Positions 5,029 through 26,311 of a stretch of DNA of 64,000 nt are shown here, one piece after another. The first letter of the stretch is position 1, and each line of letters begins with the position of its first letter. The position numbers were made by a program, and so were the translations under genes. The DNA comes from a virus, in IMG/VR virus record IMGVR_UViG_3300032011_000001, positions 94,154 to 158,153 of that record. The stretch is one strand, 5' to 3'. The notes under the pieces are model-generated. The model saw only the letters and a program-made list of their open reading frames with translations. It searched no databases and had not been told where the DNA came from.

Positions 5029-5284
5029 CTATTTCTACTCCCATAATAAACAGATTTAACAAAAGTTCTTCATACTCTACTTCATCTAACACAAACATCA
5101 TATAAGATAAGAATTCTTTAGCATCACTCCTACACAGTGTATCTATATGATAACATATAAATGTCATTATCTCTGCGTCGATGACTTCTGGTATTTCCGG
5201 AAGGCTCTCGATAGGTATATTGAATTTATATTTTGAAATTTCTTTTTTTACTTTAGCTATCTTTTCACTTCTTTTTTCAAACAT
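5006..5284 (-). CDS. Unrecognised 92-aa acidic protein
   Basis: A mostly helical protein with a charged N-terminus (EKRSEKIAKVKKE), a Pro-rich turn (PIESLPEIPEVID) and an acidic helical C-terminal half. The start overlaps the upstream stop as ATGTTTGA and the end overlaps the next gene, so it sits in a coupled operon with two GDLV-family genes. No family was recognised. Confidence 0.55.
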   Translation of the reverse strand: MFEKRSEKIAKVKKEISKYKFNIPIESLPEIPEVIDAEIMTFICYHIDTLCRSDAKEFLSYMMFVLDEVEYEELLLNLFIMGVEIDEISPTC

Positions 5285-12886: not shown

Positions 12887-13015
12887 CTAAATGAAATACT
12901 TACCTACTATTATACCAAGAATGAACCAGCATGTCAAGTCTGCTAGGTGTGCTACTAATAGTTTTCTGTTATGTCTCTCGCATACTTTGAGCCACTGATA
13001 TGTATGATCGTTCAT
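12887..13015 (-). CDS. Membrane microprotein (42 aa)
   Basis: ATG at 13013-13015 overlaps the stop of the peptidase gene as TAATG. The product has a polar N-half (MNDHTYQWLKVCERHNRK) and a C-terminal span (LADLTCWFILGIIVG) ending in KYFI. It is one of several single-span microproteins in this region. The promoter at 12909-12937 lies inside its last codons, so the sequence carries two functions or the frame is fortuitous. Confidence 0.5.
   Translation of the reverse strand: MNDHTYQWLKVCERHNRKLLVAHLADLTCWFILGIIVGKYFI
12909..12937 (-). promoter_or_regulatory. Perfect consensus sigma-70 promoter
   Basis: Minus strand TTGACA at 12932-12937, 17-base spacer, TATAAT at 12909-12914: an exact match to the consensus with optimal spacing. 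Transcription would start near 12902, just before the ribosome site of the 92-aa basic gene. It is embedded in the 42-aa frame. Confidence 0.85.
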
Positions 13016-13443
13016 TATGCTTGCTCCCTTACATATGTCATCACCCATCGTGATGCATAGTTGTTATATTCTTCTTTGTTTATGTTTATTTTTAATCTAC
13101 CCGCCAACTTTAGTCCACGCTTCCATGCGTCTAGCTCCTCCGCGATAACTTCACATCGGTATGCATTGCGGCGCTTGTTGACCTTGCTATCCTTGAAGCG
13201 ATAGGCAGCGAGGGTAGGGAAACTTTCCTTGTAACCTTTGCTGTTGTACGCAATCGCATGACCACATTCGTGAAGCAGGGAATAGACTTGGTTCTTCTTG
13301 CTCTTGATCTTAGAGTTATAGACAATATGTTTCTCCTCATGTAGATAGGCATCAATGCCATAGCTCTTGTATACCTCGAAGCCACGTCTATGTGCCCATG
13401 CTTCCAGTTTAGCTAATGCTGTAGTATATTCTTTCTTGTTCAT
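13015..13443 (-). CDS. Small zinc-peptidase-like protein (HECGH)
   Basis: A 142-aa protein with LLHECGHAIAY, an HExxH zinc motif in an ImmA/SprT-like context. The downstream EVIAEELDAW helix can supply the third ligand. The N-terminus (KKEYTTALAKLEAWAHRRGF) is helical and basic. I start at the ATG at 13441-13443, 12 bases after GAAGG; a TTG 9 bases upstream is the alternative. Phage proteins of this type may cleave regulators, but some are adaptors. The substrate is unknown. Confidence 0.7.
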   Translation of the reverse strand: MNKKEYTTALAKLEAWAHRRGFEVYKSYGIDAYLHEEKHIVYNSKIKSKKNQVYSLLHECGHAIAYNSKGYKESFPTLAAYRFKDSKVNKRRNAYRCEVIAEELDAWKRGLKLAGRLKININKEEYNNYASRWVMTYVREQA

Positions 13444-13476
13444 ACTTAACAAATACCTTCTTTTATGTTATAATTA

Positions 13477-14170: not shown

Positions 14171-14503
14171 TTATCGCACCTCTTCTTTAACTTCAAGTGA
14201 ATTGTATTCAGGGCTACGTTCGCGAGTAAAGAAATAATACTCGTTGTCAAAGCTCCCGAAATACAGGGCATGCTCAGGCTGAGGCTCGCGAGCGTCGGGG
14301 TAAGCCTGAGTTTCATTTACCATGCTAGCAAGATCACCAATGGTGTGCTTTGCCTCATGGTGTGTCCACATAAGGCGAGCAATGGCTAGTTCCATGATCT
14401 CGCTCTTGGTCAAACACTTGTTGACCATGTATTCGGCCACGGCTTGGCTCACCTTGGTTTGATTGACTTTTGTATTGGGGATAGTGAGGTATTTGTTTTC
14501 CAT
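14171..14503 (-). CDS. Unrecognised 110-aa protein heading an early operon
   Basis: The first gene after the conserved element A and promoter A. The N-half is helical (VSQAVAEYMVNKCLTKSEIMEL) and the C-half strand-rich with aromatic residues (ALYFGSFDNEYYFFTRE). The ribosome site AAAGGAAA precedes the ATG. It is followed by the 47-aa, 107-aa, 73-aa and peptidase genes with minimal spacing, so all are probably one transcript. No family was recognised. Confidence 0.6.
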   Translation of the reverse strand: MENKYLTIPNTKVNQTKVSQAVAEYMVNKCLTKSEIMELAIARLMWTHHEAKHTIGDLASMVNETQAYPDAREPQPEHALYFGSFDNEYYFFTRERSPEYNSLEVKEEVR

Positions 14504-14542: not shown

Positions 14543-14570
14543 ATTATACACTTCTGAGCGAGGATTGCAA
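14543..14570 (-). promoter_or_regulatory. Sigma-70-type promoter A (TTGCAA-16-TATAAT)
   Basis: Minus strand -35 TTGCAA at 14565-14570, 16-base spacer, -10 TATAAT at 14543-14548. It lies about 18 bases downstream of conserved element A. Promoter B (23196-23223) has the same form in the same position beside element B. Confidence 0.7.
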
Positions 14571-14587
14571 GAACTTTCTTTCCTTAT

Positions 14588-14700
14588 ATTCCGGGCACTT
14601 ACGGATAAAGCGACAATTGAGTGTTTTCGGGGGGTTGCGCGGGAATGCTGGGACTTACGTGGATCTCCATTGAGGGCAGATCTGCATCGCCATGTCGCAC
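14588..14700 (-). promoter_or_regulatory. Conserved intergenic element, copy A
   Basis: 113 bases sharing ordered blocks with 23251-23371. Minus-strand order: GTGCGACATG, a GATCT...AGATC hairpin, CCACGTAAGT, then TTGTCGCTTT, CGTAAGT and CCGGAAT. GCGACA at one end is complementary to TGTCGC near the other. It is flanked upstream by a terminator and downstream by a sigma-70 promoter, as in copy B. It may be a regulator-binding site, an origin with CGTAAGT iterons, or a structured RNA. Confidence 0.7.
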
Positions 14701-14707
14701 TAGCATT

Positions 14708-14749
14708 AAAAAGACACCCACAACTAGAGTAGGTTTAGTCATGGGTGCC
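14708..14749 (-). terminator. Rho-independent terminator of the small RNA
   Basis: Minus strand stem GGCACCCA / TGGGTGTC with an inner GACTA/TAGTT helix, followed by TTTTT. It ends transcription from the promoter at 14842-14870 before element A. Confidence 0.8.
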
Positions 14750-14835
14750 TCAAAGATAAGGGGGTTTGATCCTAGCCCCTATCATATGTTGTTAAGGCTC
14801 GCCGAGCGTAGGAGGGGAACAGCGACATGCCTAAC
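14708..14835 (-). ncRNA. Candidate small RNA between promoter and terminator
   Basis: A near-consensus promoter (14842-14870) faces a rho-independent terminator (14708-14749) about 127 bases away, with no credible protein between them (the best frames are 11 and 18 codons without ribosome sites). The transcript would contain CATGTCGC near its 5' end, a GCTCGGCGAGC hairpin and short C- and G-rich arms (TTCCCC, AGGGGC, ACCCCC) that can pair. CATGTCGC is the inverse complement of GCGACATG in element A just beyond the terminator. It could be a trans-acting sRNA, a leader or a decoy. Confidence 0.55.
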
Positions 14836-14841
14836 TTAAAC

Positions 14842-14870
14842 ATTATATCATGACGACGAGGGTATGTTAA
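14842..14870 (-). promoter_or_regulatory. Sigma-70-type promoter for the small RNA
   Basis: Minus strand -35 TTAACA at 14865-14870, 17-base spacer, -10 TATAAT at 14842-14847: one mismatch to consensus. Transcription would start near 14835. Confidence 0.75.
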
Positions 14871-14889
14871 GTGGTGACGACGTTATTTG

Positions 14890-15036
14890 TTACTCTTTTT
14901 TAACGCAGTGCGTATATACTATGTAACGTGCGTGTGCTAGATACATGGCATAGTTCACCACCATTTACCACTTTATTCCACAGAATACCACTAAAGTAGC
15001 AACCCCTACCACAGGGCATGCAAAGCTATCACCCAT
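14890..15036 (-). other. Two tiny ORFs (23 and 24 codons) in a 170-base gap
   Basis: From 15036 a 23-codon frame encodes MGDSFACPVVGVATLVVFCG, a possible membrane span. Its stop is followed immediately by an ATG opening a 24-codon frame (MVVNYAMYLAHARYIVYTHC) that ends at 14890. Neither has a convincing ribosome site. The stretch may simply be spacer upstream of the small-RNA promoter. Confidence 0.25.
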
Positions 15037-15043
15037 CTTTTAG

Positions 15044-15232
15044 CTACTCATCATCATCTTCTTTATCGGCATCGAGCTCCGCAGCAAGCATCTCTTTAAA
15101 GTGTTTAAGCATAGTCTCAGTACCAACAATGGGCATGCCTTGTATAGACTCAGTTACCATCTTCTGCTCATAGTCTCTTATCCTATACTCAAGGTATTCT
15201 ATCTTCTTTTCTTTCTCTTCTCTATTAGTCAT
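15044..15232 (-). CDS. Coiled-coil 62-aa protein
   Basis: Almost entirely helical and charged: residues 3-30 form a probable coiled coil (EEKEKKIEYLEYRIRDYEQK), and the tail is acidic (DADKEDDDE). The start overlaps the stop of the 84-aa gene by 8 bases. Likely an oligomerising or adaptor microprotein; function is unknown. Confidence 0.6.
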   Translation of the reverse strand: MTNREEKEKKIEYLEYRIRDYEQKMVTESIQGMPIVGTETMLKHFKEMLAAELDADKEDDDE

Positions 15233-15479
15233 CTTCTTCTACTTTCTTTAATTTAAACTCTTGTAGACCATAATGCTCAGGGTTACTCAGTATGTCCCTA
15301 CACTTGTCTTTCCATATAAGCTTCTGTATGTATACTTGTACCCATTGCCTATTCTCATAGGAACCTCTTTGGTCTGGTTCTAGACCTAGCTTCCTTCTCT
15401 TATCCTCTGGTACTGAGTTGTACCTTGTACTATACTCTGCTTCTACTTCTTTTACTATTTCATTCCAGCTTTTTATCAT
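15225..15479 (-). CDS. Unrecognised 84-aa helical protein
   Basis: A charged helical protein (SWNEIVKEVEAEYSTRYNS, VQVYIQKLIWKDKCRDIL). It sits between a GDLV-family gene and the coiled-coil gene in the same operon. No family was recognised. The upstream sequence ATCATGATAAAAAGC gives only a weak ribosome site. Confidence 0.55.
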   Translation of the reverse strand: MIKSWNEIVKEVEAEYSTRYNSVPEDKRRKLGLEPDQRGSYENRQWVQVYIQKLIWKDKCRDILSNPEHYGLQEFKLKKVEEDD

Positions 15480-15490
15480 GATACTTACTC

Positions 15491-15751
15491 CTACCCAAGT
15501 ATAATGTTGTCTGTGTTCTTCATGTACTTTACATGTACTAATTCTATTTTATTATTTACTAATACCCTATAGCATTTATTCTTTATATCCCTCGGGTCAT
15601 TCCATTCTTCTCCCGCCCATTCTAGGACGATGCCCACTGTGCCATGTAGTCGCATCTTGCTGAATACTCCAAGCTCTTCGTACAGGCTGTCTCTTGGTGT
15701 GGTATCCCTAATGGAAACCAAGTCACCCTTCTTAAACGTGTTCTCTTGCAT
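15491..15751 (-). CDS. SH3/KOW-like GDLV-family protein (86 aa)
   Basis: Clear family member: FKKGDLVSIRDTTPRD near the N-terminus, then LHGTVGIVLEWAG, KCYRVLVNNKIELVHVKY. A loop of about 20 residues (SLYEELGVFSKM) separates the first two strands, as in some relatives. It follows the secreted peptidase gene by 12 bases. Target unknown. Confidence 0.65.
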   Translation of the reverse strand: MQENTFKKGDLVSIRDTTPRDSLYEELGVFSKMRLHGTVGIVLEWAGEEWNDPRDIKNKCYRVLVNNKIELVHVKYMKNTDNIILG

Positions 15752-15763
15752 TGGTGTTCTCTC

Positions 15764-16426
15764 TTATAGGTTTATAAGCTTAAAGTATAAGTTCATTCTT
15801 CTTATAAACTGACTATGTTTCTTTGTCCATCCGCCAAACCTTACACCAACGTGGTCCGGGTCGCAATGAAGGTATCCGTTCTCGGTGCATATGGCGACAT
15901 GGACGAGCTCGTGGACAAAGCTTGTGTTATGTAATTTGATGTTCTTTGCCCCTCTCGTTGACACCCATATCCTTGCACCATTTCCCAACGTCAACCCATG
16001 CAGTGGAGTCTCCCTCAAGAAACGCCCTTTCGAGTCGTATACGTTTTGCGCGACAAGCTTCCTTGAGCTAAACTCTATCTCAAGAGAGCGCAAGTCGTCT
16101 AAGAGTTGTTGCCTTGTCTCGTCCGTGTGGCAGAAGCCCTCGTCCACCCAAAAGGAATAGAACAAAGATAGACCCATTGCCAAGTCAAACTTGTCAACAG
16201 GGAAGAAGCAAGAGTCTTGCTCTAGCGTTGCATTACCGAAGCCAACGATAGTAGACTTGGCTGTCCTGAGACACTTTCTATCATCTTCGAAGGTGTGAAT
16301 GAAGCCTGTCTTGACATAGTTGCTCCACTCACTGTGGTAAAAGCCATACTGGTCTGCTTGCGGCGTGTAGGCCGAGGCAAGGAATAGTATGGTTGCTGCA
16401 ATGTATGCTTTCATCATCTTCCTCAT
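15764..16426 (-). CDS. Exported HExxH metallopeptidase-like protein
   Basis: A 220-aa protein with an N-terminal signal peptide (KAYIAATILFLASAYTPQA) and a C-terminal zinc motif SFVHELVHVAI followed 15-20 residues later by HCDPDHVG, which can provide the third ligand. Several Cys residues suggest disulphides, fitting periplasmic or extracellular location. The ATG overlaps the upstream stop (ATGA); an ATG 4 codons later is the alternative. An exported peptidase beside membrane microproteins could act on the host envelope; this is inference. Confidence 0.7.
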   Translation of the reverse strand: MRKMMKAYIAATILFLASAYTPQADQYGFYHSEWSNYVKTGFIHTFEDDRKCLRTAKSTIVGFGNATLEQDSCFFPVDKFDLAMGLSLFYSFWVDEGFCHTDETRQQLLDDLRSLEIEFSSRKLVAQNVYDSKGRFLRETPLHGLTLGNGARIWVSTRGAKNIKLHNTSFVHELVHVAICTENGYLHCDPDHVGVRFGGWTKKHSQFIRRMNLYFKLINL

Positions 16427-16641
16427 CTTTCCATGATGATAAAGGCTAGCATGGCCAAGTAGATAACTGTAAAGATGGCGTCTGTGCTCCTCTTAAACAA
16501 ATAATATGTATAAAGCTTTAAGCCCGTCAATGTTAGCATGGCAAAGATGAATAGTTGCGTGTGCCCTGTGAACAAGGTTAACAACATAGCAATGATGGCC
16601 ATGAGTTGTAGGCGGTTTATTAGTGTTTCGTTTATTTTCAT
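16423..16641 (-). CDS. Three-span membrane protein (72 aa)
   Basis: Starts at the ATG at 16639-16641, 8 bases after CAGGAG; an upstream frame start lacks a ribosome site. Hydrophobic spans lie at about residues 12-28 (LQLMAIIAMLLTLFTG), 30-48 and 54-70 (AIFTVIYLAMLAFIIM). There are few charges between them. It overlaps the exported peptidase gene (ATGA), suggesting coupled expression. Holin, anti-holin or envelope modifier are possible; none is supported specifically. Confidence 0.65.
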   Translation of the reverse strand: MKINETLINRLQLMAIIAMLLTLFTGHTQLFIFAMLTLTGLKLYTYYLFKRSTDAIFTVIYLAMLAFIIMER

Positions 16642-16652
16642 ATGTACTCCTG

Positions 16653-16925
16653 TTACTTTACTGCCCGAAAAACATAGTCGGTTATCCACTTCGAGCAGGT
16701 TGGCCCTTCCTTGACAGCTATCTTCAAGAGGCTACGGTAGTAGCTTTCAAGACTCTCATGATGCCATATGGACTTGCCTGTTCTATTCTTTTCACGCGAA
16801 CATGAGCGGTGAAACTCTATCTTCTCTTGCAAGAAGGATATATGTTCCTCGTAACCCTCACGCAATAGGGCTGTTCGCTCATCATATGATAAGGTATCTT
16901 CCATTTTATCTTCGCTATCTGACAT
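16653..16925 (-). CDS. Unrecognised 90-aa protein
   Basis: Helical, charged protein (MSDSEDKMEDTLSYDERTAL, EEHISFLQEKIEFHRSCSRE). The ATG follows AGAGGCATAAT. Directly upstream lies the motif CGCCCCAAATTTTTT (16943-16958), shared with the leader of the IMPDH-like gene. It ends 11 bases before the membrane protein. Function is unknown. Confidence 0.6.
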   Translation of the reverse strand: MSDSEDKMEDTLSYDERTALLREGYEEHISFLQEKIEFHRSCSREKNRTGKSIWHHESLESYYRSLLKIAVKEGPTCSKWITDYVFRAVK

Positions 16926-16942
16926 ATTATGCCTCTGTTTGG

Positions 16943-16958
16943 AAAAAATTTGGGGCGA
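16943..16958 (-). promoter_or_regulatory. 16-base leader motif, copy 1
   Basis: Minus strand TCGCCCCAAATTTTTT, ending about 17 bases before the ATG of the 90-aa gene. An identical 16-mer precedes the IMPDH-like gene at 42234-42249. It could be an operator or a translational control element in the mRNA leader. Confidence 0.45.
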
Positions 16959-16966
16959 AAAGCTTT

Positions 16967-17071
16967 TTAGTCTGAGGACAAAAGCTCCCTTGCCTCCAAC
17001 ATAATCTTTTCTGCCGCGATGAGAGCCACGACATACCCGGCGAGTGCTGTCTCGATGAGTGCCGTTAACAT
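16967..17071 (-). CDS. Membrane microprotein (34 aa)
   Basis: ATG at 17069-17071 overlaps the stop of the 100-aa gene, and GAGGATGATGGC just before it provides a ribosome site. The product is one span (LTALIETALAGYVVALIAAE) followed by a charged helix (KIMLEARELLSSD). Short length explains why automatic calling would miss it. Confidence 0.55.
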   Translation of the reverse strand: MLTALIETALAGYVVALIAAEKIMLEARELLSSD

Positions 17072-17367
17072 GCCATCATCCTCATTTTATTTTGACGTCT
17101 GGCTGCAGCCTCAATAACATTAAGACCGGCAGAGATAGCTACGTTATCTCCCATCGGGTCGCGCAATTGAGCCTCAAGGCGAGCGTCAATGTAATCGGAG
17201 AGAGTGAAGCCAAGGTTTGTGAACATGTATTTCTCATCCTTCAGGCCTGAATAGTATTTATCGTGGTAGGTAAAATACTCCAAAAGGCTATCCCCTTGTT
17301 GTAATAGTTTTAACTTTTTTCTTTCCTGCTGACTTTTTACGGGCAGCTTCTTTTTCTTAAAAGGCAT
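17065..17367 (-). CDS. Unrecognised 100-aa basic protein
   Basis: Lysine-rich N-terminus (PFKKKKLPVKSQQERKKLKL), central Tyr-rich segment (YFTYHDKYYSGLKDEKY) and a helical C-terminus with a basic end (AAARRQNKMRMM). A GAGAGGAGTATAA ribosome site precedes the ATG. It lies between two membrane microproteins. Function is unknown. Confidence 0.6.
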   Translation of the reverse strand: MPFKKKKLPVKSQQERKKLKLLQQGDSLLEYFTYHDKYYSGLKDEKYMFTNLGFTLSDYIDARLEAQLRDPMGDNVAISAGLNVIEAAARRQNKMRMMAC

Positions 17368-17384
17368 TTATACTCCTCTCAGTG

Positions 17385-17531
17385 TTAATAAAGAACAACA
17401 ACACCAGTGGCGTGTAATACTGTAATGATGCCGAAGGCCGTTGCAGCTCCTCGCAAATACCATCGACTCAAGTCTGACAACGTGGCAAATAGCGCCATTG
17501 CCACTTTCTTTGTATCAATTTCTACGTTCAT
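17385..17531 (-). CDS. Membrane microprotein (48 aa)
   Basis: ATG at 17529-17531 overlaps the upstream stop as ATGA. The product is amphipathic at first (VEIDTKKVAMALFATLSD), then has a C-terminal span (AATAFGIITVLHATGVVVLY). It belongs to the hidden set of membrane microproteins. Confidence 0.5.
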   Translation of the reverse strand: MNVEIDTKKVAMALFATLSDLSRWYLRGAATAFGIITVLHATGVVVLY

Positions 17532-17755
17532 AACTTTGTACCATTCCTTTCGCAAACAAGATCAGTGTCGTGCTTTTTCTCGACAACACTTGTTGACATA
17601 TAGTTAATTATGCCCTGCAAGGCATTAATTGAGGTTTTCATCTTCTTTTTGTGGTTATCATCAGCAGTGGTAAAGTGCTCAGAGCCTATTTCTTCGTGCA
17701 TCTGTTTCAGAATTTCCTTAATCTGATCTTGATATTTTATTAATGTCCTAAACAT
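17528..17755 (-). CDS. Unrecognised 75-aa helical protein
   Basis: Starts at the ATG at 17753-17755, 8 bases after CAGGAG (MFRTLIKYQDQIKEILK); the longer frame upstream overlaps the GDLV gene. Helical and charged, with an HFTTADDNHKKK turn. Function is unknown. Confidence 0.6.
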   Translation of the reverse strand: MFRTLIKYQDQIKEILKQMHEEIGSEHFTTADDNHKKKMKTSINALQGIINYMSTSVVEKKHDTDLVCERNGTKL

Positions 17756-17973
17756 TGCTGGCTCTCCTGAGTGGGTCTTGATATTAGTTCTAAGTCTTGG
17801 TATGGAACACACTTAACTGTCCCTATCTCGTCCTCGATGAAGGTGTCTAGCACATACACTAGGACAACTGCCTTGCCTCTCTTCTCCTCAACATCCTTTA
17901 CTATACCCAATGGAATAGATTTTGGATACTTCGCATAACCAACAAGATCATTCTTTTCAAATTTATTAAACAT
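17740..17973 (-). CDS. SH3/KOW-like GDLV-family protein (77 aa)
   Basis: Begins MFNKFEKNDLVGYAKYP; then IPLGIVKDVEE, KAVVLVYVL and VPYQDLELISR in family order. It is the first gene after the promoter at 17983-18011, whose predicted start gives a short leader. The 3' end overlaps the next gene by 16 bases. Confidence 0.65.
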   Translation of the reverse strand: MFNKFEKNDLVGYAKYPKSIPLGIVKDVEEKRGKAVVLVYVLDTFIEDEIGTVKCVPYQDLELISRPTQESQQCLGH

Positions 17974-17982
17974 ATTCTGTCC

Positions 17983-18011
17983 ATTCTATCACACTTTGGT
18001 AACATTGTAAA
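17983..18011 (-). promoter_or_regulatory. Sigma-70-type promoter (TTTACA-17-TAGAAT)
   Basis: Minus strand -35 TTTACA at 18006-18011, 17-base spacer, -10 TAGAAT at 17983-17988, one mismatch per box. It lies just beyond the 44-aa gene and would drive 17973 leftwards. Confidence 0.65.
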
Positions 18012-18014
18012 GCA

Positions 18015-18149
18015 TTATTCTTCTCTTACTTTTTCTCTGCAAATGTTACGGTTCTTTTCTTTCTTCTTGTCCTTGAATATTTGGTTCTTATGATCGTTCA
18101 ACTTGGGGACAAGAGGGTTTCTTGGTAGTCTTTCTTTGCTTTTTGTCAT
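18015..18149 (-). CDS. Basic microprotein (44 aa)
   Basis: ATG at 18147-18149, two bases after the stop of the Fe-S carrier gene. The product is strongly basic (MTKSKERLPRNPLVPKLNDH, then FKDKKKEKNR). A short Lys/Arg-rich protein of this kind could bind RNA or the ribosome. It fills the gap exactly before the promoter at 17983-18011. Confidence 0.5.
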   Translation of the reverse strand: MTKSKERLPRNPLVPKLNDHKNQIFKDKKKEKNRNICREKVREE

Positions 18150-18151
18150 GA

Positions 18152-18487
18152 TCATACCCCGAAAGAACTTCCACAACCACACTTCTTCTTGGCGTTTGGA
18201 TTTATAAACTGAAAGCCGCTGGCCATAAAGCTCGTTCCGTAGTCAAGCGTAGTCCCTTCTAGCACCACCGCACTGTAACCATCAACAACAACCTTTAAAC
18301 CAGATACCTCTGTGATGTGATCGTGATCGAAACTCTCGGTGTCTATCTCCAGCTTGTATTGAAGCCCGGAACAGCCGCCGCCCTGAATGGCTGCTCTAAG
18401 GAATGAACCTTCTTTGCCCTCTACTTCGATAGCTTCCTTGGCCTTCTCTATTGCGGCCTCAGTTAATGTCAGTGGGAAATTACTCAC
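18152..18487 (-). CDS. A-type iron-sulfur carrier (IscA/ErpA/HesB family)
   Basis: A 111-aa protein, normal length for the family. It has the three conserved cysteines: C39 in GGGCSGLQY and C103/C105 in KKKCGCGSS, a Cys-x63-Cys-x-Cys spacing that binds an Fe-S cluster between subunits. FMASGFQFINPNA matches the conserved C-terminal strand. Such genes occur in many marine phages and may help mature host or phage Fe-S enzymes, but no obvious client lies nearby. The start overlaps the 63-aa gene by 8 bases. Confidence 0.93.
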   Translation of the reverse strand: MSNFPLTLTEAAIEKAKEAIEVEGKEGSFLRAAIQGGGCSGLQYKLEIDTESFDHDHITEVSGLKVVVDGYSAVVLEGTTLDYGTSFMASGFQFINPNAKKKCGCGSSFGV

Positions 18488-18671
18488 GCTCTTTCTTCCT
18501 CATTGCTGTTAAAAACAATTCTGCATGTGTTCGATATTTAAAGTCTGCTATGCTAGAATTATATATGTCTCCTGCAGAATCTGTCAACACTCGGTATACC
18601 GTATATCCACCGGGGCCAAATGTTGTGTTGTACCCAAAAGTACCTGGCTTGTTTCCAACGTCATATTTCAT
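18480..18671 (-). CDS. Unrecognised 63-aa protein
   Basis: A Gly/Tyr-rich strand-forming N-half (PGTFGYNTTFGPGGYTVYRV) and a helical basic C-terminus (HAELFLTAMRKKERE). Translationally coupled to the Fe-S carrier by an 8-base overlap, so it may assist it. Function is unknown. Confidence 0.6.
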   Translation of the reverse strand: MKYDVGNKPGTFGYNTTFGPGGYTVYRVLTDSAGDIYNSSIADFKYRTHAELFLTAMRKKERE

Positions 18672-18681
18672 AACAAATACC

Positions 18682-18771
18682 TCATGGCGAATGCGTCAAT
18701 ATATAAACAAGAAGATTACAACCTGCTATCAAAAGAGTTATGTATAAAAAGATCGCGGCGTGTCCGTCCAT
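18682..18771 (-). CDS. Membrane microprotein (29 aa)
   Basis: ATG at 18769-18771 follows the previous stop by 8 bases and the frame fills the gap to the 63-aa gene. Nearly the whole product is one span (MDGHAAIFLYITLLIAGCNL, then LVYIL). The ribosome site is weak, so confidence is limited. Confidence 0.4.
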   Translation of the reverse strand: MDGHAAIFLYITLLIAGCNLLVYILTHSP

Positions 18772-18779
18772 ACATATAA

Positions 18780-19097
18780 TTAGTACACTTCTTGGAATTC
18801 AAGAGTATCGTCCAAGTCAAGCTCTGGCGGCTCGTCACCCGGATCGATGGTTGCGTCAGCCGACAGAACCGCTGCACCATACTTCTTTGCTGCAGCAACC
18901 TTTGCTGCTCTGACAACTTCATTAACAGCATAGTTCCTGTCCACTTCCACAACGATGTTGCAAAACTCGGGAAACCATTCGTCTCCCACGTTGTTCACAA
19001 CTCCCGTCCTGCTTGCCCAAGTAATGTTTCTCAGAGTCACAACGTACTCTTTCTCCAGGGGCATATCAAATACATCAATTTTACTTGTCACGATCAT
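18780..19097 (-). CDS. Unrecognised 105-aa protein
   Basis: I start at the ATG at 19095-19097 (MIVTSKIDVFDMPLEKEYV), with GGAGT just before it; a TTG-started extension overlaps a microprotein. Strand-rich first half with an aromatic turn (DEWFPEFCNIVVEVDRNYAV), an alanine-rich helix (VVRAAKVAAAKKYGAAVLSA) and a very acidic tail. No family was recognised. Confidence 0.6.
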   Translation of the reverse strand: MIVTSKIDVFDMPLEKEYVVTLRNITWASRTGVVNNVGDEWFPEFCNIVVEVDRNYAVNEVVRAAKVAAAKKYGAAVLSADATIDPGDEPPELDLDDTLEFQEVY

Positions 19098-19155
19098 ACT
19101 CCATAGTTTTGCAAATACAAATATAAAACAACATTCCAACTATTATCCATTCCAT
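19081..19155 (-). CDS. Membrane microprotein (24 aa)
   Basis: ATG at 19153-19155 has AGAGGTTTAGT upstream, a fair ribosome site. The product starts MEWIIVGMLFYICICK, one short span, then a charged end. It overlaps the following gene by 17 bases. Too short for certainty. Confidence 0.4.
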   Translation of the reverse strand: MEWIIVGMLFYICICKTMEYDRDK

Positions 19156-19211
19156 ACTAAACCTCTATTCCGTATAACATCAATATAAAATAATAAATGA
19201 ACACCAAGAAC

Positions 19212-19547
19212 TCATACATCCTTCGATTCTCCACCTTCTTCTGCGACAGGCTCAACCTCGGTGATGTAAGACGTCAAGTACTCAGTCATTATCGTCTTTC
19301 CTGGTTGCACTTGCCAACACACTCTAACACCTTCTGGCATCTCTTCGTAACTGTCTCCTCCCCAGCCGCCCATTGAAATACCAGTCTTAATAACAATCCC
19401 AATCCACTTGTCCGTGTGAGGCCCATACCAATATTCCATGTCACTCATGTTCGCCGGGCCAGGGGCACTCTGCCTCTCAGACAGGCTCATCTCGTAAAAG
19501 CGGCGCTTGAAGCGAACCAAGTCTCCCACTTTAGGCTTGTACTCCAT
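19212..19547 (-). CDS. SH3/KOW-like GDLV-family protein (~111 aa)
   Basis: MEYKPKVGDLVRFKRRFYEM opens the barrel, followed by a long loop, WIGIVIKTGIS, GVRVCWQVQPG and YLTSYITEVEPV. The start overlaps the upstream stop (TCATGATGG), so either of two adjacent ATGs may be used. It has the longest first loop of the family (about 25 residues with SERQSAPGPANMSD). Confidence 0.6.
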   Translation of the reverse strand: MEYKPKVGDLVRFKRRFYEMSLSERQSAPGPANMSDMEYWYGPHTDKWIGIVIKTGISMGGWGGDSYEEMPEGVRVCWQVQPGKTIMTEYLTSYITEVEPVAEEGGESKDV

Positions 19548-19918
19548 CATGAGCCCCATCGGTTCTCATCACTAATAAGCTTCCACCAGTCTGACCTCTT
19601 GGTCACACCACGAATGTGCTTATGACGGATAAAGAACCGTCGGTACATGCCTTTTCGACCCTCGGTAGGGAGGAAGGTGCAGTGGTTCTCAGGAACCAAC
19701 ACTAAGCAGCCCCTTGGGGTTGCTGCAAAGCTATTGTCGTTAACGACCTCCGCCAAAATATGAGGATCAACCTCCCTCTCACCCGCTTTACGGATGAACT
19801 TAGGCTTAGTGCCATGTACGTCTACGAGCTTAATGCACTCGATAGACGAGCCGTCAGGACGCATATCGCCCATGATCTTTTCTACCATATCTCTAGCTAA
19901 GAAGTCTGCTGCTCTCAT
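19547..19918 (-). CDS. Unrecognised 123-aa protein
   Basis: Helical N-terminus (RAADFLARDMVEKIMGD), then an alternating alpha/beta core (IECIKLVDVHGTKPKFIRK, GCLVLVPENHCTFLP) and a basic end (FFIRHKHIRGVTKRSDWW). AGGAGGATATT precedes the ATG, one of the best ribosome sites here. No family was recognised. Confidence 0.6.
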   Translation of the reverse strand: MRAADFLARDMVEKIMGDMRPDGSSIECIKLVDVHGTKPKFIRKAGEREVDPHILAEVVNDNSFAATPRGCLVLVPENHCTFLPTEGRKGMYRRFFIRHKHIRGVTKRSDWWKLISDENRWGS

Positions 19919-19927
19919 AATATCCTC

Positions 19928-20140
19928 CTATGACTCAATGGTGGTTTCGTAATAAGCATCATCATCATCTGTGATGCGAATGGTACATTGGGAATGCTCC
20001 GATGCTACCTCCCTGGCAAGTGATAGTGCCTCTTCTTCTGAGGCGATATCCTCTTTCAAAACTTCCCAAGATGGGTCATCAGATAGTCGCCCATTGGTGG
20101 ATGCCCAAGGGCAATACTTGATACCTACTTTATATGCCAT
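19928..20140 (-). CDS. Unrecognised 70-aa protein
   Basis: MAYKVGIKYCPWASTNGRL, then a helix (ASEEEALSLAREVASEH) and a strand (CTIRITDDDDAYYETTIES). The beta-alpha-beta pattern is typical of small phage proteins of unknown role. AAGGAGATGTC is the ribosome site. Confidence 0.6.
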   Translation of the reverse strand: MAYKVGIKYCPWASTNGRLSDDPSWEVLKEDIASEEEALSLAREVASEHSQCTIRITDDDDAYYETTIES

Positions 20141-20149
20141 GACATCTCC

Positions 20150-20290
20150 TTAAAGAGTCTGTTGTCGCTTGTCGCCTTCGACTCGCTTTTTGATAACCTT
20201 TTTGTACGCATATTCCATTATTTTAAAAAACTGTTCTTCAGTTACATTTAAAGACTTGCATACTAATTCTAATTCTTCTTGGTCTGTCAT
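20150..20290 (-). CDS. Unrecognised 46-aa helical protein
   Basis: A short gene with GGAGAATAAA before the ATG at 20288-20290. The product is two helices (TDQEELELVCKSLNVTEEQF and KIMEYAYKKVIKKRVE) with a basic tail, resembling a helix-turn-helix by length only. Close spacing to both neighbours supports a real gene. Confidence 0.55.
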   Translation of the reverse strand: MTDQEELELVCKSLNVTEEQFFKIMEYAYKKVIKKRVEGDKRQQTL

Positions 20291-20291
20291 T

Positions 20292-20489
20292 TTATTCTCC
20301 TGCAGCTACTTCAATGTAGCCCTGATTGATGAGCATTTCTGCGTGTCTCTGATAGCTTCCCTGTAGTGAGTTCAGGATGTTGAGGTCAACGAGTTCCTGG
20401 AAAAGGTCTACGACCTCTCCTTCGTCTAGTCGCCCTTCTTCATACGCCATGATCTTGTCCACAATGCTATGATATTTTCTCAAGTTCAT
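20292..20489 (-). CDS. Unrecognised 65-aa helical protein
   Basis: Acidic helical protein (LRKYHSIVDKIMAYEEGRLD, EVVDLFQELVDLNIL). The LDEGEVVDLFQELVD part recalls short phage proteins of unknown role. AAGGGG lies 10 bases before the ATG. The -10 box of the promoter at 20488-20516 overlaps this start codon. Confidence 0.6.
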   Translation of the reverse strand: MNLRKYHSIVDKIMAYEEGRLDEGEVVDLFQELVDLNILNSLQGSYQRHAEMLINQGYIEVAAGE

Positions 20490-20516
20490 TATATCACTTC
20501 CCCTTCTTTATGTCAA
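20488..20516 (-). promoter_or_regulatory. Perfect-consensus sigma-70 promoter overlapping a start codon
   Basis: Minus strand TTGACA at 20511-20516, 17-base spacer, TATAAT at 20488-20493. The TATAAT contains the ATG of the 65-aa gene, so transcripts begun here would lack that start and would serve the genes further downstream. It may also be chance within a ribosome-site region. Confidence 0.6.
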
Positions 20517-20622
20517 ATTTATTATCTATCCGGCATTTTCCGTAGTACATGATCCCTATCCAAATAGAGAACAAGATACCATCAGTATACGTCAATTCGT
20601 GCCATACGTCAAGGAAATTCAT
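20494..20622 (-). CDS. Membrane microprotein (42 aa)
   Basis: ATG at 20620-20622 overlaps the upstream stop as TAATG. The product has a central hydrophobic span (GILFSIWIGIMYYG) flanked by a polar N-terminus (NFLDVWHELTYTD) and a basic C-terminus (KFDIKKGK). It is another member of the membrane-microprotein set. Confidence 0.55.
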   Translation of the reverse strand: MNFLDVWHELTYTDGILFSIWIGIMYYGKCRIDNKFDIKKGK

Positions 20623-20921
20623 TAGTTGATCTTCTTTTTGTCAATGGCGAACTCGCCAAAAGCAGTGTATTCATTGCTCCTTTGAGGCAACATTGGGCTT
20701 GAAGCCTTTGCCAAGTCTTGGTATACATCGAATTCAAACCTCTCATCTCGCATGGGACTGAAGGCTCTCAAGAGGTATTTAATGAAGTCATACTTGAGAT
20801 CGATATACTCTGACTTCAACTTGTATGCGTCTTCTGGGCTCATTCTATCTTGTGCTGCGAGCAACTTGTGCTCAAAGCGGTTAAGAGTTTCGTTTAATTC
20901 TACTTCCATTTTGTTTTTCAT
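20622..20921 (-). CDS. Unrecognised 99-aa helical protein
   Basis: AGGAGATAAT ribosome site. Long helices (VELNETLNRFEHKLLAAQDR, LKSEYIDLKYDFIKYLLRA) and an FSPMRDERFEFD segment. Coupled by TAATG to the following membrane microprotein. No family was recognised. Confidence 0.6.
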   Translation of the reverse strand: MKNKMEVELNETLNRFEHKLLAAQDRMSPEDAYKLKSEYIDLKYDFIKYLLRAFSPMRDERFEFDVYQDLAKASSPMLPQRSNEYTAFGEFAIDKKKIN

Positions 20922-20929
20922 ATTATCTC

Positions 20930-21148
20930 CTATTGAATTTTGTTTAATTTTCTAACGTCAAACCATGTTTTCATGCTCACCCGATGGGCTCCGCTATCAT
21001 TAAGCCAAAAGACTTGTGCAACGCGCTCCACTTGGTCTGAACTTAGCTCTTTCATCTCGCGCACGATACCCATTAAAGGCGGGTATCCGTACTTCTCCTG
21101 CTTTGCTGATAAGCCATCGTGAGTCACTGTATCGCCTACTTTGATCAT
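20930..21148 (-). CDS. SH3/KOW-like GDLV-family protein (72 aa)
   Basis: Starts at the ATG at 21146-21148 (MIKVGDTVTHDGLS), after GGGGGAGTATTAAA; upstream frame extension only shadows the neighbour. Barrel strands PLMGIVREM, VAQVFWLND and TWFDVRKLNKI follow the family pattern. Confidence 0.65.
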   Translation of the reverse strand: MIKVGDTVTHDGLSAKQEKYGYPPLMGIVREMKELSSDQVERVAQVFWLNDSGAHRVSMKTWFDVRKLNKIQ

Positions 21149-21149
21149 T

Positions 21150-21410
21150 TTAATACTCCCCCACATCTGCGTCAAAGCACCATTTTTCAATCTTAGCCTC
21201 TTCAAAGAGATCATCTTGGCAGGACTGGCAAAGGCCAGAAATTTCAAACTCCTTAGCATCCGCATTAGTGCGGAATTTGGTCACAGGCATGCCGCAACCA
21301 ATGGGTGCGGATACGCAAACCTCATCAAGAATGGCTTGCTCGCGGTTAACGCCGAACGTGGCCTTGAGATGGTTGTCAATACGGGGGCTTTTAATAGTTG
21401 GAATAAGCAT
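21150..21410 (-). CDS. Small zinc-ribbon-like protein (86 aa)
   Basis: Starts at the ATG at 21408-21410, 7 bases after AAAGGAG. Two Cys pairs, CVSAPIGCG and CQSCQDD, about 25 residues apart, fit a zinc ribbon of the kind used for RNA, DNA or protein contact. The arrangement resembles small phage proteins that strip regulatory information from a CxxC pair; the target is unknown. Confidence 0.6.
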   Translation of the reverse strand: MLIPTIKSPRIDNHLKATFGVNREQAILDEVCVSAPIGCGMPVTKFRTNADAKEFEISGLCQSCQDDLFEEAKIEKWCFDADVGEY

Positions 21411-21421
21411 AGTGTCTCCTT

Positions 21422-21655
21422 TTAGTCTCGATAACAGCCATAGTCCCAAGCATCTGGGCTAGACTTTTCAATCTTGTGGTCATAAGTAACGCGAGCGAGC
21501 TGCAGAATGCGGTCGCGGCTTTCATCATCGAGTTCCCCCAAGTCAGAAAGAAAGCTCAAAAAGTCAATATCTGCAAAAGAGTTCACAGACTTTTTGAGGT
21601 GTTGTTCGGTTGCGCTCATGCGCTCTTCAAGATATAATTCGTGTGCTGTTTTCAT
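21422..21655 (-). CDS. Unrecognised 77-aa helical protein
   Basis: Helical (TAHELYLEERMSATEQHLKK, FADIDFLSFLSDLGELDDES, RDRILQLARVTYDH) and preceded by AGGAGACTCGA. The middle segment is acidic. No family was recognised. Confidence 0.55.
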   Translation of the reverse strand: MKTAHELYLEERMSATEQHLKKSVNSFADIDFLSFLSDLGELDDESRDRILQLARVTYDHKIEKSSPDAWDYGCYRD

Positions 21656-21664
21656 TCGAGTCTC

Positions 21665-21910
21665 CTATAAAGAAAATACTGCTGATACTTCGTTGTTAAT
21701 TGCTTCTACATAATGCATGCCAGGTAGCTCGTTAGACACTTGTCCCCACTCAGTAAGACGGCTAACAGAAGGCATACCATTGGTATGGTATATAATAACC
21801 TCAGCGGAGGGTGCCCACTCGCCGGGGTCTTCGCTTGCAGGGCAAATGCACTGTGGATTGACCGTCATGCAGAATACTTTTTCAATTGCTTTTGTTACTT
21901 GATGTTCCAT
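21665..21910 (-). CDS. Unrecognised 81-aa protein
   Basis: Contains a Cys pair (CMTVNPQCICPASED) early and strands further on (AEVIIYHTNGMPSVSRL, MHYVEAINNEVSAVF). It is preceded by a GGAGAGTAAGAT ribosome site. Possible metal site; function is unknown. Confidence 0.55.
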   Translation of the reverse strand: MEHQVTKAIEKVFCMTVNPQCICPASEDPGEWAPSAEVIIYHTNGMPSVSRLTEWGQVSNELPGMHYVEAINNEVSAVFSL

Positions 21911-21913
21911 ATC

Positions 21914-22174
21914 TTACTCTCCTTCTGTTAATAGTGTTTCTTCAACTTCATCAACCGGAATCCAGCCGAACCATCGAGGGTATTTTGCCTGCTTGGGATC
22001 TCTCTCTAGGCTGCAAAATGCCTGACACTTGCGGCCCTTGAACCCAAAGACGTTTTCTGAAAACTCGTCTCCACGGTTGCCAATTGGCCCTTCTTCCTCT
22101 GAGAAGGGGATGATAGTATGCTCCCTGAAGCGGTTCTTTGTTCGCTTGGTTGCGTTTTTGCTAGGCTTAAACAT
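21914..22174 (-). CDS. Unrecognised 86-aa basic protein
   Basis: Starts at the ATG at 22172-22174 (MFKPSKNATKRTKNRFREH), after AGGAGCAACAATA. Basic N-terminus, GNRGDEFSENVFGFKGRKC core, aromatic C-half (YPRWFGWIPVDEVEETL). Coupled to the previous gene through TAATG in a junction also used at 22618. Confidence 0.55.
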   Translation of the reverse strand: MFKPSKNATKRTKNRFREHTIIPFSEEEGPIGNRGDEFSENVFGFKGRKCQAFCSLERDPKQAKYPRWFGWIPVDEVEETLLTEGE

Positions 22175-22395
22175 TATTGTTGCTCCTGTTCCAAAAGGTC
22201 GTCGTAACAACCACCATGTTGATCAAAAATTTGGTCTTTCAATTGCTCAAGTGTATACTCGGTGTAAAATTGCTGATGAAGTGTTTCTATTGCCATCGTA
22301 ACAAGGGTATCCATATCCATATCATCAACTAAGCGGGTCGCATAGTTTTCTGCTAAAGTGTTGTGTGTCATTTTGTCGCTTGAGTTATTAACCAT
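22174..22395 (-). CDS. Unrecognised 73-aa acidic protein
   Basis: Helical acidic protein (TRLVDDMDMDTLVTMAIETL) ending DDLLEQEQQ. Its last codons GAACAGGAGCAACAATAATG double as the ribosome site and start of the next gene. The 112-aa protein at 22618 ends the same way. Function is unknown. Confidence 0.55.
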   Translation of the reverse strand: MVNNSSDKMTHNTLAENYATRLVDDMDMDTLVTMAIETLHQQFYTEYTLEQLKDQIFDQHGGCYDDLLEQEQQ

Positions 22396-22618
22396 TGATA
22401 ATATCCTTCGAGTTAAAGAGTTTAGATGGGCATTCGCTCATAACAATTGTTTGAATGCGAGGCTTTGTGATACCAAAGTTCTTAACAAGCTCATCGCGGG
22501 TGGCGTGTGCCTGTGTTGATGAGTTAATTCGAGTACACAAAAGCGACTCTTCAATACCATCGGGGATAATACCCCAAATTGCATATTCTACTTCACTGGT
22601 TATATCTTTATCGTTCAT
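22388..22618 (-). CDS. Unrecognised 76-aa protein
   Basis: Acidic N-half (NDKDITSEVEYAIWGIIPDG) and a helical part with FGITKPRIQTIV that could be a helix-turn-helix-like module, but the match is weak. Coupled to both neighbours by start-stop overlaps. Confidence 0.55.
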   Translation of the reverse strand: MNDKDITSEVEYAIWGIIPDGIEESLLCTRINSSTQAHATRDELVKNFGITKPRIQTIVMSECPSKLFNSKDIING

Positions 22619-22956
22619 TATTGTTGTTCCTGTTCTACTGCCATTCGTGCTGCTGTTTTCAAAATACTTACCAAACCCGCTTGTGTTGGGAAGTCTTCAA
22701 CCATGTCCCATTCAAATTTATTGGGCAAGAAGCCATTAACGCTTGCGGTTGCGGCTGCATTGTCCCACTTCTGCAGCGAGATATGATTGAAGTGTCCGTC
22801 ATTGCGAGTATCGGACAACCACTTAGTGGTAAATACATCTTTTACAAATTCAACCAAAGCAGGTTTAACCAATTGACGATAGTATGTCTGATGATCTATC
22901 GAGCTTCTAAGATAGTCGCTTCTGGTATAAATGAATGGTTTTAAGATATTCGGCAT
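22618..22956 (-). CDS. Unrecognised 112-aa protein
   Basis: Aromatic and charged protein (YRQLVKPALVEFVKDVFTTK, FNHISLQKWDNAAATASVNG) ending VEQEQQ. The final codons form the ribosome site of the next gene, as at 22174. It lies second after promoter B. No family was recognised. Confidence 0.6.
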   Translation of the reverse strand: MPNILKPFIYTRSDYLRSSIDHQTYYRQLVKPALVEFVKDVFTTKWLSDTRNDGHFNHISLQKWDNAAATASVNGFLPNKFEWDMVEDFPTQAGLVSILKTAARMAVEQEQQ

Positions 22957-22965
22957 AATAAACTC

Positions 22966-23163
22966 CTATTGGCTTTCGGTGAATTGGTCATAAGATGCAG
23001 ACTTTTCTGATGCTTTGTAACCATTGTTATATCCATGCTCAAATGCGGCGCGGTTTGTATCAAATATTCTTTTATAATAAGAACCATTAATATCCTTATA
23101 TACGCCCAAGACCTTCGAACGATCTCCAACGGTTGTTACATACGTTTTGAACTCTTTCATCAT
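22966..23163 (-). CDS. Unrecognised 65-aa protein heading operon B
   Basis: First gene after conserved element B and promoter B, with AAAGGAAACAAAA before the ATG. Strand-rich N-half (FKTYVTTVGDRSKVLGVYKD) and a helix (AAFEHGYNNGYKASEKSASY) with the HGYNNGYKA pattern common in short phage proteins. Strong expression is likely. Function is unknown. Confidence 0.6.
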   Translation of the reverse strand: MMKEFKTYVTTVGDRSKVLGVYKDINGSYYKRIFDTNRAAFEHGYNNGYKASEKSASYDQFTESQ

Positions 23164-23195
23164 TTTTGTTTCCTTTGCCTCTTTAAGATGTACCC

Positions 23196-23223
23196 ATTAT
23201 ACCAAGCCTGACAGAAATAGCAA
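23196..23223 (-). promoter_or_regulatory. Sigma-70-type promoter B (TTGCTA-16-TATAAT)
   Basis: Minus strand -35 TTGCTA at 23218-23223, 16-base spacer, -10 TATAAT at 23196-23201. Same form and position relative to the conserved element as promoter A. Confidence 0.7.
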
Positions 23224-23250
23224 GGCTTTTTTCATCTTTTTTTCTCTTTA

Positions 23251-23371
23251 ATTCCGGCAACTTACGCAAAAAGCGACAATCAGGTACTTACGCGCATTTG
23301 CTTGACTTGTGGCCACTTTCAGGTACTTACGTGGATCTGCTTTTGGGGGTAGATCCATCGGCATGTCGCAC
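23251..23371 (-). promoter_or_regulatory. Conserved intergenic element, copy B
   Basis: 121 bases matching element A (14588-14700) in block order: GTGCGACATG, a GGATCT...AGATCC hairpin, CCACGTAAGT, then TTGTCGCTTT, GCGTAAGT and CCGGAAT. It has an extra GCGTAAGTACCTGA copy in the middle, giving three CGTAAGT repeats. GCGACA and TGTCGC at the ends are complementary. It is placed right after terminator B and right before promoter B. Confidence 0.7.
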
Positions 23372-23375
23372 ATAC

Positions 23376-23402
23376 AAAAAAACCCCCTAAAAACAGGGGG
23401 TT
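23376..23402 (-). terminator. Rho-independent terminator B
   Basis: Minus strand AACCCCCT, loop, AGGGGGTT with seven Ts. It ends the operon whose last gene is 23419-23724 and directly abuts element B. Confidence 0.88.
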
Positions 23403-23418
23403 ACGTAAGTACTTGTAT

Positions 23419-25144: not shown

Positions 25145-26311
25145 CTAAATACCCAGAACCTTCTCATTCCCGCATTTAAAATTTGTATAAGACATAACTC
25201 TTTTCGGAGCGATCCAAAGACGCTTGCACATACTTCGGCCTGGAGTCGGGGCTCCAAGGTCTGTAACGACGATATGAGCATCATAATTGTGCTCATTCAC
25301 ATACTTTGTCGGTGCATCAAAACATGTACCTCCAGTCAATACTCTCTCTCGTTTTACGCTATGTCCCTTCTTTACTCTGACAATCTTATCCTCGTGGACC
25401 CTTGTATCGAAAGGTATAAGATCAAAGTCAACAATGCTGCTCAGTACACTAATCTCAGAAAAGAATTCGGCCAACATCTTATCGTCAACCGAGCCGGACT
25501 GATCTAGGCTCAGGGCTATCTTTGCAACTCTTCTAACTTTCTTGGCTGGAAAGACGTATGGAAACCTCTTGTTTATTTTTCTAACTGTGCTGTTCTTTTC
25601 CATTCTTTGGGAAGTCTTACAGAAATACCTGAGTACTTTTTGCCAACTAACTCTTGCTCCAACATATTTGTCGATAAGTTTGTTTTTCATCTCCGCTGTA
25701 ACGGTTCCCCACCTGTTTGTCTTTGAACAGTCGCTAACTGCTTTCGAGATAGCATCCTCTAGATTGCTGTTTGCTATCTCAGAGCCTACAGAGGCTTTTG
25801 CATCGCCCGGTGTATCACCAGTCGCCGGTGCCCACTCCTCGTGGCTGTCGAGCTCTGAGACACCATCAACATCCTCGTCGGACATCTGGGAAAGTATGGC
25901 CTGATAATACCACTCTGAGGTTTTTCCAGCAGGCATGTTCTCAAAAGGACCTTTTCCTGGGAAGCATGCAATATCTGGTAGCTCGCCCTCCAGGTGACTG
26001 TTGATGGCAAGATCTGCAGCGATGTTCCAAACCTTATGGTTTGTTCTCTTTTCTGCAGTGACGTGGTTAAAGATAAGATGATAGAACTCGTGCTTTAGAA
26101 CGCCCAAGATCTCTCTAGCTGGTAATGAATTTATAAACTCTTCATTGTAGAGAAGTTGAAAGCGGCTCGTCGATTCGTTGAAGCGAACTCCGCAAGTGGG
26201 CACACTGCTGTCACTTATCTTATCTATCTGTAGAGAAATGTATGAGAAAAACGGCTCGTCCCTCAATAGGGCAGACAAGTGCTTTCTCATATCAAACTTT
26301 CTTTTACTCAT
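25145..26311 (-). CDS. HExxH/VWA protein, partner of the MoxR ATPase
   Basis: A 388-aa protein. The N-terminal half has LKHEFYHLIFNH, an HExxH zinc site, followed by a helix with WNIAADLAINSHL. The C-terminal half is a von Willebrand A-like domain with the metal-binding DQSGSVDD (DxSxS). This arrangement is the DUF2201-type VWA-like peptidase found beside MoxR ATPases. MoxR/VWA pairs act as AAA-driven chaperones or co-factor inserters. I use the ATG overlapping the ATPase stop by 8 bases. Which protein it remodels, and whether the zinc site is active, is unknown. Confidence 0.82.
   Translation of the reverse strand: MSKRKFDMRKHLSALLRDEPFFSYISLQIDKISDSSVPTCGVRFNESTSRFQLLYNEEFINSLPAREILGVLKHEFYHLIFNHVTAEKRTNHKVWNIAADLAINSHLEGELPDIACFPGKGPFENMPAGKTSEWYYQAILSQMSDEDVDGVSELDSHEEWAPATGDTPGDAKASVGSEIANSNLEDAISKAVSDCSKTNRWGTVTAEMKNKLIDKYVGARVSWQKVLRYFCKTSQRMEKNSTVRKINKRFPYVFPAKKVRRVAKIALSLDQSGSVDDKMLAEFFSEISVLSSIVDFDLIPFDTRVHEDKIVRVKKGHSVKRERVLTGGTCFDAPTKYVNEHNYDAHIVVTDLGAPTPGRSMCKRLWIAPKRVMSYTNFKCGNEKVLGI

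Follow-up and report, generated by a model that had tools for sequence, protein, structure and literature searches.

Two promoter-attached arrays of repeated sites, probably operators, in the genome of a large uncultivated phage

The DNA analyzed here, referred to below as the window, is a stretch of 64,000 nucleotides covering positions 94154-158153 of the 158,153-base virus record IMGVR_UViG_3300032011_000001, in which almost all genes are on the minus strand. Among the proteins encoded by this phage (G000) are a DNA polymerase III alpha of its own, a DnaB-like helicase, a UvsX-like recombinase, a ribonucleotide reductase, a GroEL-like chaperonin, and a Lon protease. It has no close cultured relative, with no match to the window by DNA among 50,697 phage records and polymerase matches at only ~30% identity. 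Within the window we studied two elements of ~125 bases, A and B, first noticed from the letters alone as copies of one conserved unit. The blocks they were said to share (GTGCGACATG, GATCT/AGATC in A or GGATCT/AGATCC in B, CCACGTAAGT, TTGTCGCTTT, CGTAAGT, and CCGGAAT) were all found on the minus strand and in the same order in both, CGTAAGT being present in two copies in A and in three in B. Their context, originally described as identical, is so only in part, as both have a terminator before them and a promoter with a 16-base spacer after them, but the two sets of downstream genes are unrelated, and the 540 bp before A are noncoding, whereas B directly follows a gene.

To look for relatives, IMG/VR was scanned with an exact 17-base pattern of the element, TTGTCGCTTTNNNCGTAAGT. 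Four contigs were retrieved, and all four contained the whole element together with the downstream promoter, which is more than chance would give. One of them (G002) is nearly identical to the window; the other three, the diverged G001 (64 kb), G003 (190 kb), and G004 (191 kb), each have a second, B-type element at the syntenic place. A further pattern led to G005, which has both types, while an A-type element was found by a protein search of bacterial genome contigs in L132, a metagenome-assembled genome (MAG) contig from a gammaproteobacterium bin, of which only part was read. Records L018 to L022 and L044 were discarded as chance pattern matches that lack the element. A sequence model of nine elements (R1) was then searched against 34 records, 31 of them related by the polymerase only; its matches were confined to members of the clade, and the element was not found in the 31 polymerase-related records. 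The A-type element of G005, held out of training, was recovered with an E value of 4.7e-11. The features of the two arrays in the window are as follows, A and B both being training members of R1.

14582..14700, minus strand: element A, whole array (R1 82.6 bits, E 9.5e-25; orthologues in G001, G003, G004, G005, and L132)
14685..14700, minus strand: distal site X of A, GTGCGACATGGCGATG (alignment of eight to nine elements)
14662..14682, minus strand: GATC inverted repeat of A, GATCT ... AGATC (found in 7 of 8 elements, with a gap of variable length and without compensatory change)
14645..14659, minus strand: repeat Y1 of A, CGTAAGTCCCAGCAT (spacing table)
14625..14639, minus strand: repeat Y2 of A, CGCAACCCCCCGAAA, 20 bp after Y1 (spacing table)
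14607..14616, minus strand: site X' of A, TTGTCGCTTT, 46 bp before the -35 box
14589..14603, minus strand: repeat Y4 of A, CGTAAGTGCCCGGAA, 36 bp after Y2 and 13 bp after X'
23245..23371, minus strand: element B, whole array (R1 102.7 bits, E 5.3e-31; orthologues in G001, G003, G004, and G005)
23356..23371, minus strand: distal site X of B, GTGCGACATGCCGATG (element alignment)
23333..23356, minus strand: inverted repeat of B, GGATCT ... AGATCC (element alignment)
23317..23331, minus strand: repeat Y1 of B, CGTAAGTACCTGAAA (spacing table)
23297..23311, minus strand: repeat Y2 of B, CACAAGTCAAGCAAA, 20 bp after Y1
23278..23292, minus strand: repeat Y3 of B, CGTAAGTACCTGATT, 19 bp after Y2
23270..23279, minus strand: site X' of B, TTGTCGCTTT, 56 bp before the -35 box
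23252..23266, minus strand: repeat Y4 of B, CGTAAGTTGCCGGAA, 26 bp after Y3

Exactly two syntenic copies were present in each sufficiently complete genome of the clade. A fuzzy scan of all 158 kb of the record gave no third full copy, and the weak matches elsewhere were scattered single CGTAAGT-like words. Since this word alone is not rare (seven occurrences in the window against 4.6 expected), the evidence lies in the ordered whole. A pair of CGTAAGT words at G000:31190 and 31215 was rejected as a third copy because it lies in coding DNA and the other blocks are missing. An additional CGTAAGT was found on the opposite strand at 23404-23410, beside the terminator at B. The search of the genome and its relatives had been named in the original prediction as the test that could overturn it, and, with further copies in the relatives, the observation held. 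Conservation was also higher than in the surroundings. The mean identity between G000 and G001 was 78% per 100 bp (1,820 windows, 61 kb), and B with its terminator reached 94 to 100% (50-bp windows) versus 42 to 82% in the downstream gene. A functionless segmental duplication, or a small transposon-like repeat, could be suspected from the ends of the element, which form partly inverted repeats (CCCTTTA...ACTTACG...GCGACA) in G003 and G005. Nevertheless, such a source of the pair is hardly credible and is already contradicted by synteny: diverged species share the location and the count of the copies, a third copy is lacking, and the elements are better conserved than their flanks.

Read 5' to 3' on the coding strand, the array consists of the distal site X (GTGCGnCATGCCGATG), a GATC inverted repeat (GGATCT-gap-AGATCC, its arms separated by 3 to 13 bases), the repeats Y1, Y2, and (Y3), the site X' (TTGTCGyTTT) joined to the last repeat, Y4 (after which TAAAGG is common), an A-rich stretch, and the promoter. 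The Y repeats are 15-base direct repeats, each close to CGTAAGTnCCyGnAA and ~20 bp apart, three in A and four in B. Their spacings are characteristic of each type, 20 (or 19) and 36 bp in the A-type elements of G000, G001, G003, and G004 and 20, 19, and 26 bp in the B-type elements of G000, G001, and G003, and the steps of 19 to 20 bp remain constant while the intervening sequence varies. A reversed half-site or dyad of similar sequence is located just upstream at the B-type loci and itself forms a terminator-like hairpin in G003 and G005. G004 contains a lone, near-perfect 22-bp palindrome made of two Y half-sites, CAAGTACTTACGTAAGTACCTG, directly before a gene (G004:164353-164374, L031). A direct-repeat period of ~20 bp is expected of an iteron-type origin, and it is seen in A (20), B (20, 19), and the A-type copy of G005 (19, 19). 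An origin at A is the main rival to an operator array (see below).

The arrays are attached to promoters, and the relevant features are listed here.

14543..14570, minus strand: promoter of operon A, TTGCAA-16-TATAAT (promoter scan and spacing measurement)
23196..23223, minus strand: promoter of operon B, TTGCTA-16-TATAAT (promoter scan and spacing measurement)
14734-14716, minus strand: terminator before A
23402-23381, minus strand: terminator of the operon preceding B (the interval 23381..23415 includes an overlapping reversed half of the Y palindrome, CAAGTACTTACGTAA)

A sigma70-type promoter was found at the end of every A- or B-type element (11 copies, six species), with a spacer of 16 bp in 10 of the 10 copies derived from IMG/VR. 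Repeated sites stand at fixed distances from it. With a and b marking the A- and B-type copies, X' lies 46 bp from the -35 box in five cases (A, G001a, G003a, G004a, and G001b) and 56 bp in four (B, G003b, G004b, and G005b), and Y4 follows X' at 13 bp in all cases with both in forward orientation. In G005a and L132 the X'-Y4 module is reversed, and CGACA is then found 24 bp from the -35 box in both; in L132 the reversal extends to every Y repeat, at steps of 19, 20, and 28 bp. The values of 46 and 56 bp differ by about one helical turn, even between the orthologues B (56) and G001b (46), pointing to proteins that have to face the polymerase.

The original prediction had left three options side by side, a regulator site, an iteron origin, and an RNA, and comparison with the relatives separates them in part. 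If the element were transcribed, it could function as a structured RNA, be it an antiterminator, a riboregulator, or a small RNA, as the visible GATCT/AGATC and GCGACA/TGTCGC inverted repeats and the small-RNA candidate directly upstream of A would suggest. However, the fold z-scores of eight elements ranged from -1.25 to +1.25, no better than those of shuffled sequences, no pair showed compensatory change on both sides, and there was no Rfam match to the elements. The proposed pairing of the GCGACA/TGTCGC ends is broken without compensation in three of the eight. As for the GATC hairpins, described as kept, the inverted repeat itself is indeed present in seven of eight, although its gap is variable, compensatory change is absent, and G003a has lost the second arm. 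The element also spans the DNA from right after a terminator up to before a promoter, and its modules are inverted in two species, which would destroy an RNA but not protein sites. An RNA role thus appears highly improbable; folded as DNA, only one of the eight elements stands out. Promoter-phased, partly inverted DNA modules favor instead a regulator binding array.

The region upstream of A has additional features.

14958..14991, minus strand: GTGG array, four copies with a period of exactly 10 bp (one array in each genome, at the A locus; Markov expectation 0)
14842..14870, minus strand: promoter of the putative small RNA, TTAACA-17-TATAAT (promoter scan; conserved in G001)
14705..14838, minus strand: likely small RNA, with the terminator before A at its end (fold z -3.9; 92% identical to G001 over 97 nucleotides)

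The GTGG array lies within positions 14897-14996, which are 100% identical to G001 and represent the top 100-bp window of the 61 kb compared. Arrays of about four copies were also found at G001:28245-28278, G003:144447-144480, G004:9103-9146, G005:53818-53851, and L132:2529-2562, always upstream of A and only in this clade. Between the GTGG array and element A lie the likely small-RNA gene (~130 nucleotides), for which no Rfam match was obtained, and its promoter. At the start of this gene (14705-14870, minus strand), the word GGCATGTCGC matches the X core GCGACATGCC in reverse complement. The GTGG array resembles MraZ boxes, reported in Mollicutes as direct repeats of AAAGTG[T/G] (PMC8475190), in its 10-bp-period direct repeats, including AAAGTGG. 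However, this likeness concerns the neighboring array and not elements A and B, and a phage-encoded MraZ was discarded because no such gene was found in any of five phage records.

These features are where the origin has to be weighed. Locus A would then be a replication origin, with the Y repeats as initiator-bound iterons, the GTGG array and the small-RNA promoter as parts of it, and the B copy serving only autoregulation. In iteron plasmids, Rep monomers bind the iterons and dimers bind the operator, and direct repeats of ~20 bp, a palindrome of the same half-site, and an adjoining promoter reproduce that layout. The likeness to the origins with a Rep operator of F, R6K, pSC101, and pPS10 extends to direct repeats ~19 to 22 bp apart, and the 540-bp noncoding stretch at A, home to the top-ranking 100-bp window of 61 kb and to the once-per-genome GTGG array, is also consistent with it. 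An origin at A would explain the extra conserved DNA there but not the promoter-phased copy at B. In contrast to those plasmids, there are two copies per genome, each phased to a promoter, no Rep gene was found, and no DnaA box or opening region was identified; no initiator was found among the scanned proteins, and a Pol III alpha and a DnaB-like helicase are encoded by the phage itself. GC skew has no turn at A, but it is masked by the location of nearly all genes on one strand and hence uninformative. Altogether, we consider an origin unlikely. Iteron arrays around a promoter are also known from plasmid partition centromeres, which the arrays and the 10-bp-period array resemble, so that the elements could be envisaged as packaging signals, or as centromere-like sites bound by an adaptor of the ParR or TubR type. 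This seems very unlikely, as two promoter-phased copies speak against it and no partition protein was recognized among the proteins tested, although no genome-wide test for ParM or TubZ was made.

The most likely explanation is that the pair of elements forms a multisite switch for a DNA-binding protein, each being a promoter-attached operator array that controls an operon, to which we assign a probability of roughly 65%. From the geometry described, we infer both protein binding and an action on transcription. A sequence-specific protein, probably phage encoded, would bind the CGTAAGTnCCyGnAA direct repeats, three in A and four in B, and GTGCGACATG and TTGTCGCTTT, one at either end, would be bound by the same or a second protein. 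Once filled, the array might form a single nucleoprotein complex on the helix face set by the promoter, which would switch or boost the two sigma70-type promoters together, by activation or repression, and these in turn would drive the small-gene operons downstream from A and B.

Several points weigh against this explanation. The repeated spacings come mostly from orthologous loci and hence are not independent events. The gap of the GATC inverted repeat varies from 3 to 13 bases, as a rigid dimer site would not predict, and the second arm is missing in G003a. The early timing of operons A and B is likewise something that we infer. Finally, no DNA-binding protein was recognized among ~20 nearby proteins using Pfam and PHROGs, nor does the gene directly after A have a recognizable DNA-binding domain:

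14171..14503, minus strand: first gene of operon A, 110 amino acids, YLTIPNT family (adjoins the A-type element in all clade records; no Pfam family)

This gene was found in 5 of 21 records, the same distribution as the element, and by position it is the obvious candidate for the regulator, although neither its weak AlphaFold2 (AF2) model (predicted local distance difference test [pLDDT] score of 59) nor family searches supported a DNA-binding fold. Its helix pattern is suggestive of a ribbon-helix-helix or winged-helix regulator, but this assignment was dropped, as Pfam, PDB sequence, and fold searches gave no support. Apart from this, the leader of operon A in G001 (L014 ~4040-4085, minus strand) and G003 (L016 ~5225-5260) opens with a three-codon frame, ATGAACAAGTAA/G, that may encode a leader peptide.

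Phage promoters with operator arrays are known from lambda OR/OL, P22 Arc/Mnt, and the Mu early operators, all of them multioperator early promoter regions. The similarities are two related operator clusters per genome at operon promoters, several repeated sites, and dependence on helix phase. Here, in contrast, no recognizable repressor or activator gene was found, the sites are upstream of the -35 box and not over it, and the module is invertible. We know of no motif like the CGTAAGT type, and no counterpart was found for the exact two-copy arrangement, the invertible module, or the linked GTGG array. A more elaborate possibility, which we regard as tentative, is that locus A is a combined control center in which the GTGG array, the small-RNA gene, and the invertible, helix-phased operator array would act together through a new family of phage DNA-binding proteins, coupling expression at A and B, possibly with the start of replication at A.

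Other genes in the window deserve mention. The product of 18152-18487 (minus strand) belongs to PF01521 (iron-sulfur [Fe-S] cluster biosynthesis) and is conserved in G001, G003, and G004, and 13015-13452 (minus strand) encodes a small conserved protein with a weak match to IrrE/ImmA-type metallopeptidases and an HECGH motif in its homologues. An AAA ATPase and an adjoining DUF2201 VWA-metallopeptidase, a MoxR/VWA-like pair, are found at 25145-27425 (minus strand), and six imperfect 48-nucleotide repeats at 29491-30555, within a gene of 646 amino acids, encode a repeated motif.

From these sites, with their number and geometry, we would predict that in these large uncultivated phages a single regulator governs two blocks of unknown genes, possibly involved in host takeover. 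The array provides a concrete bait for this regulator, and the distances of 46, 56, and 24 bp offer a direct test of contact with the host RNA polymerase. A search for a replication origin in this lineage should likewise begin at locus A, which contains the 100 bp of highest conservation in the compared genome.

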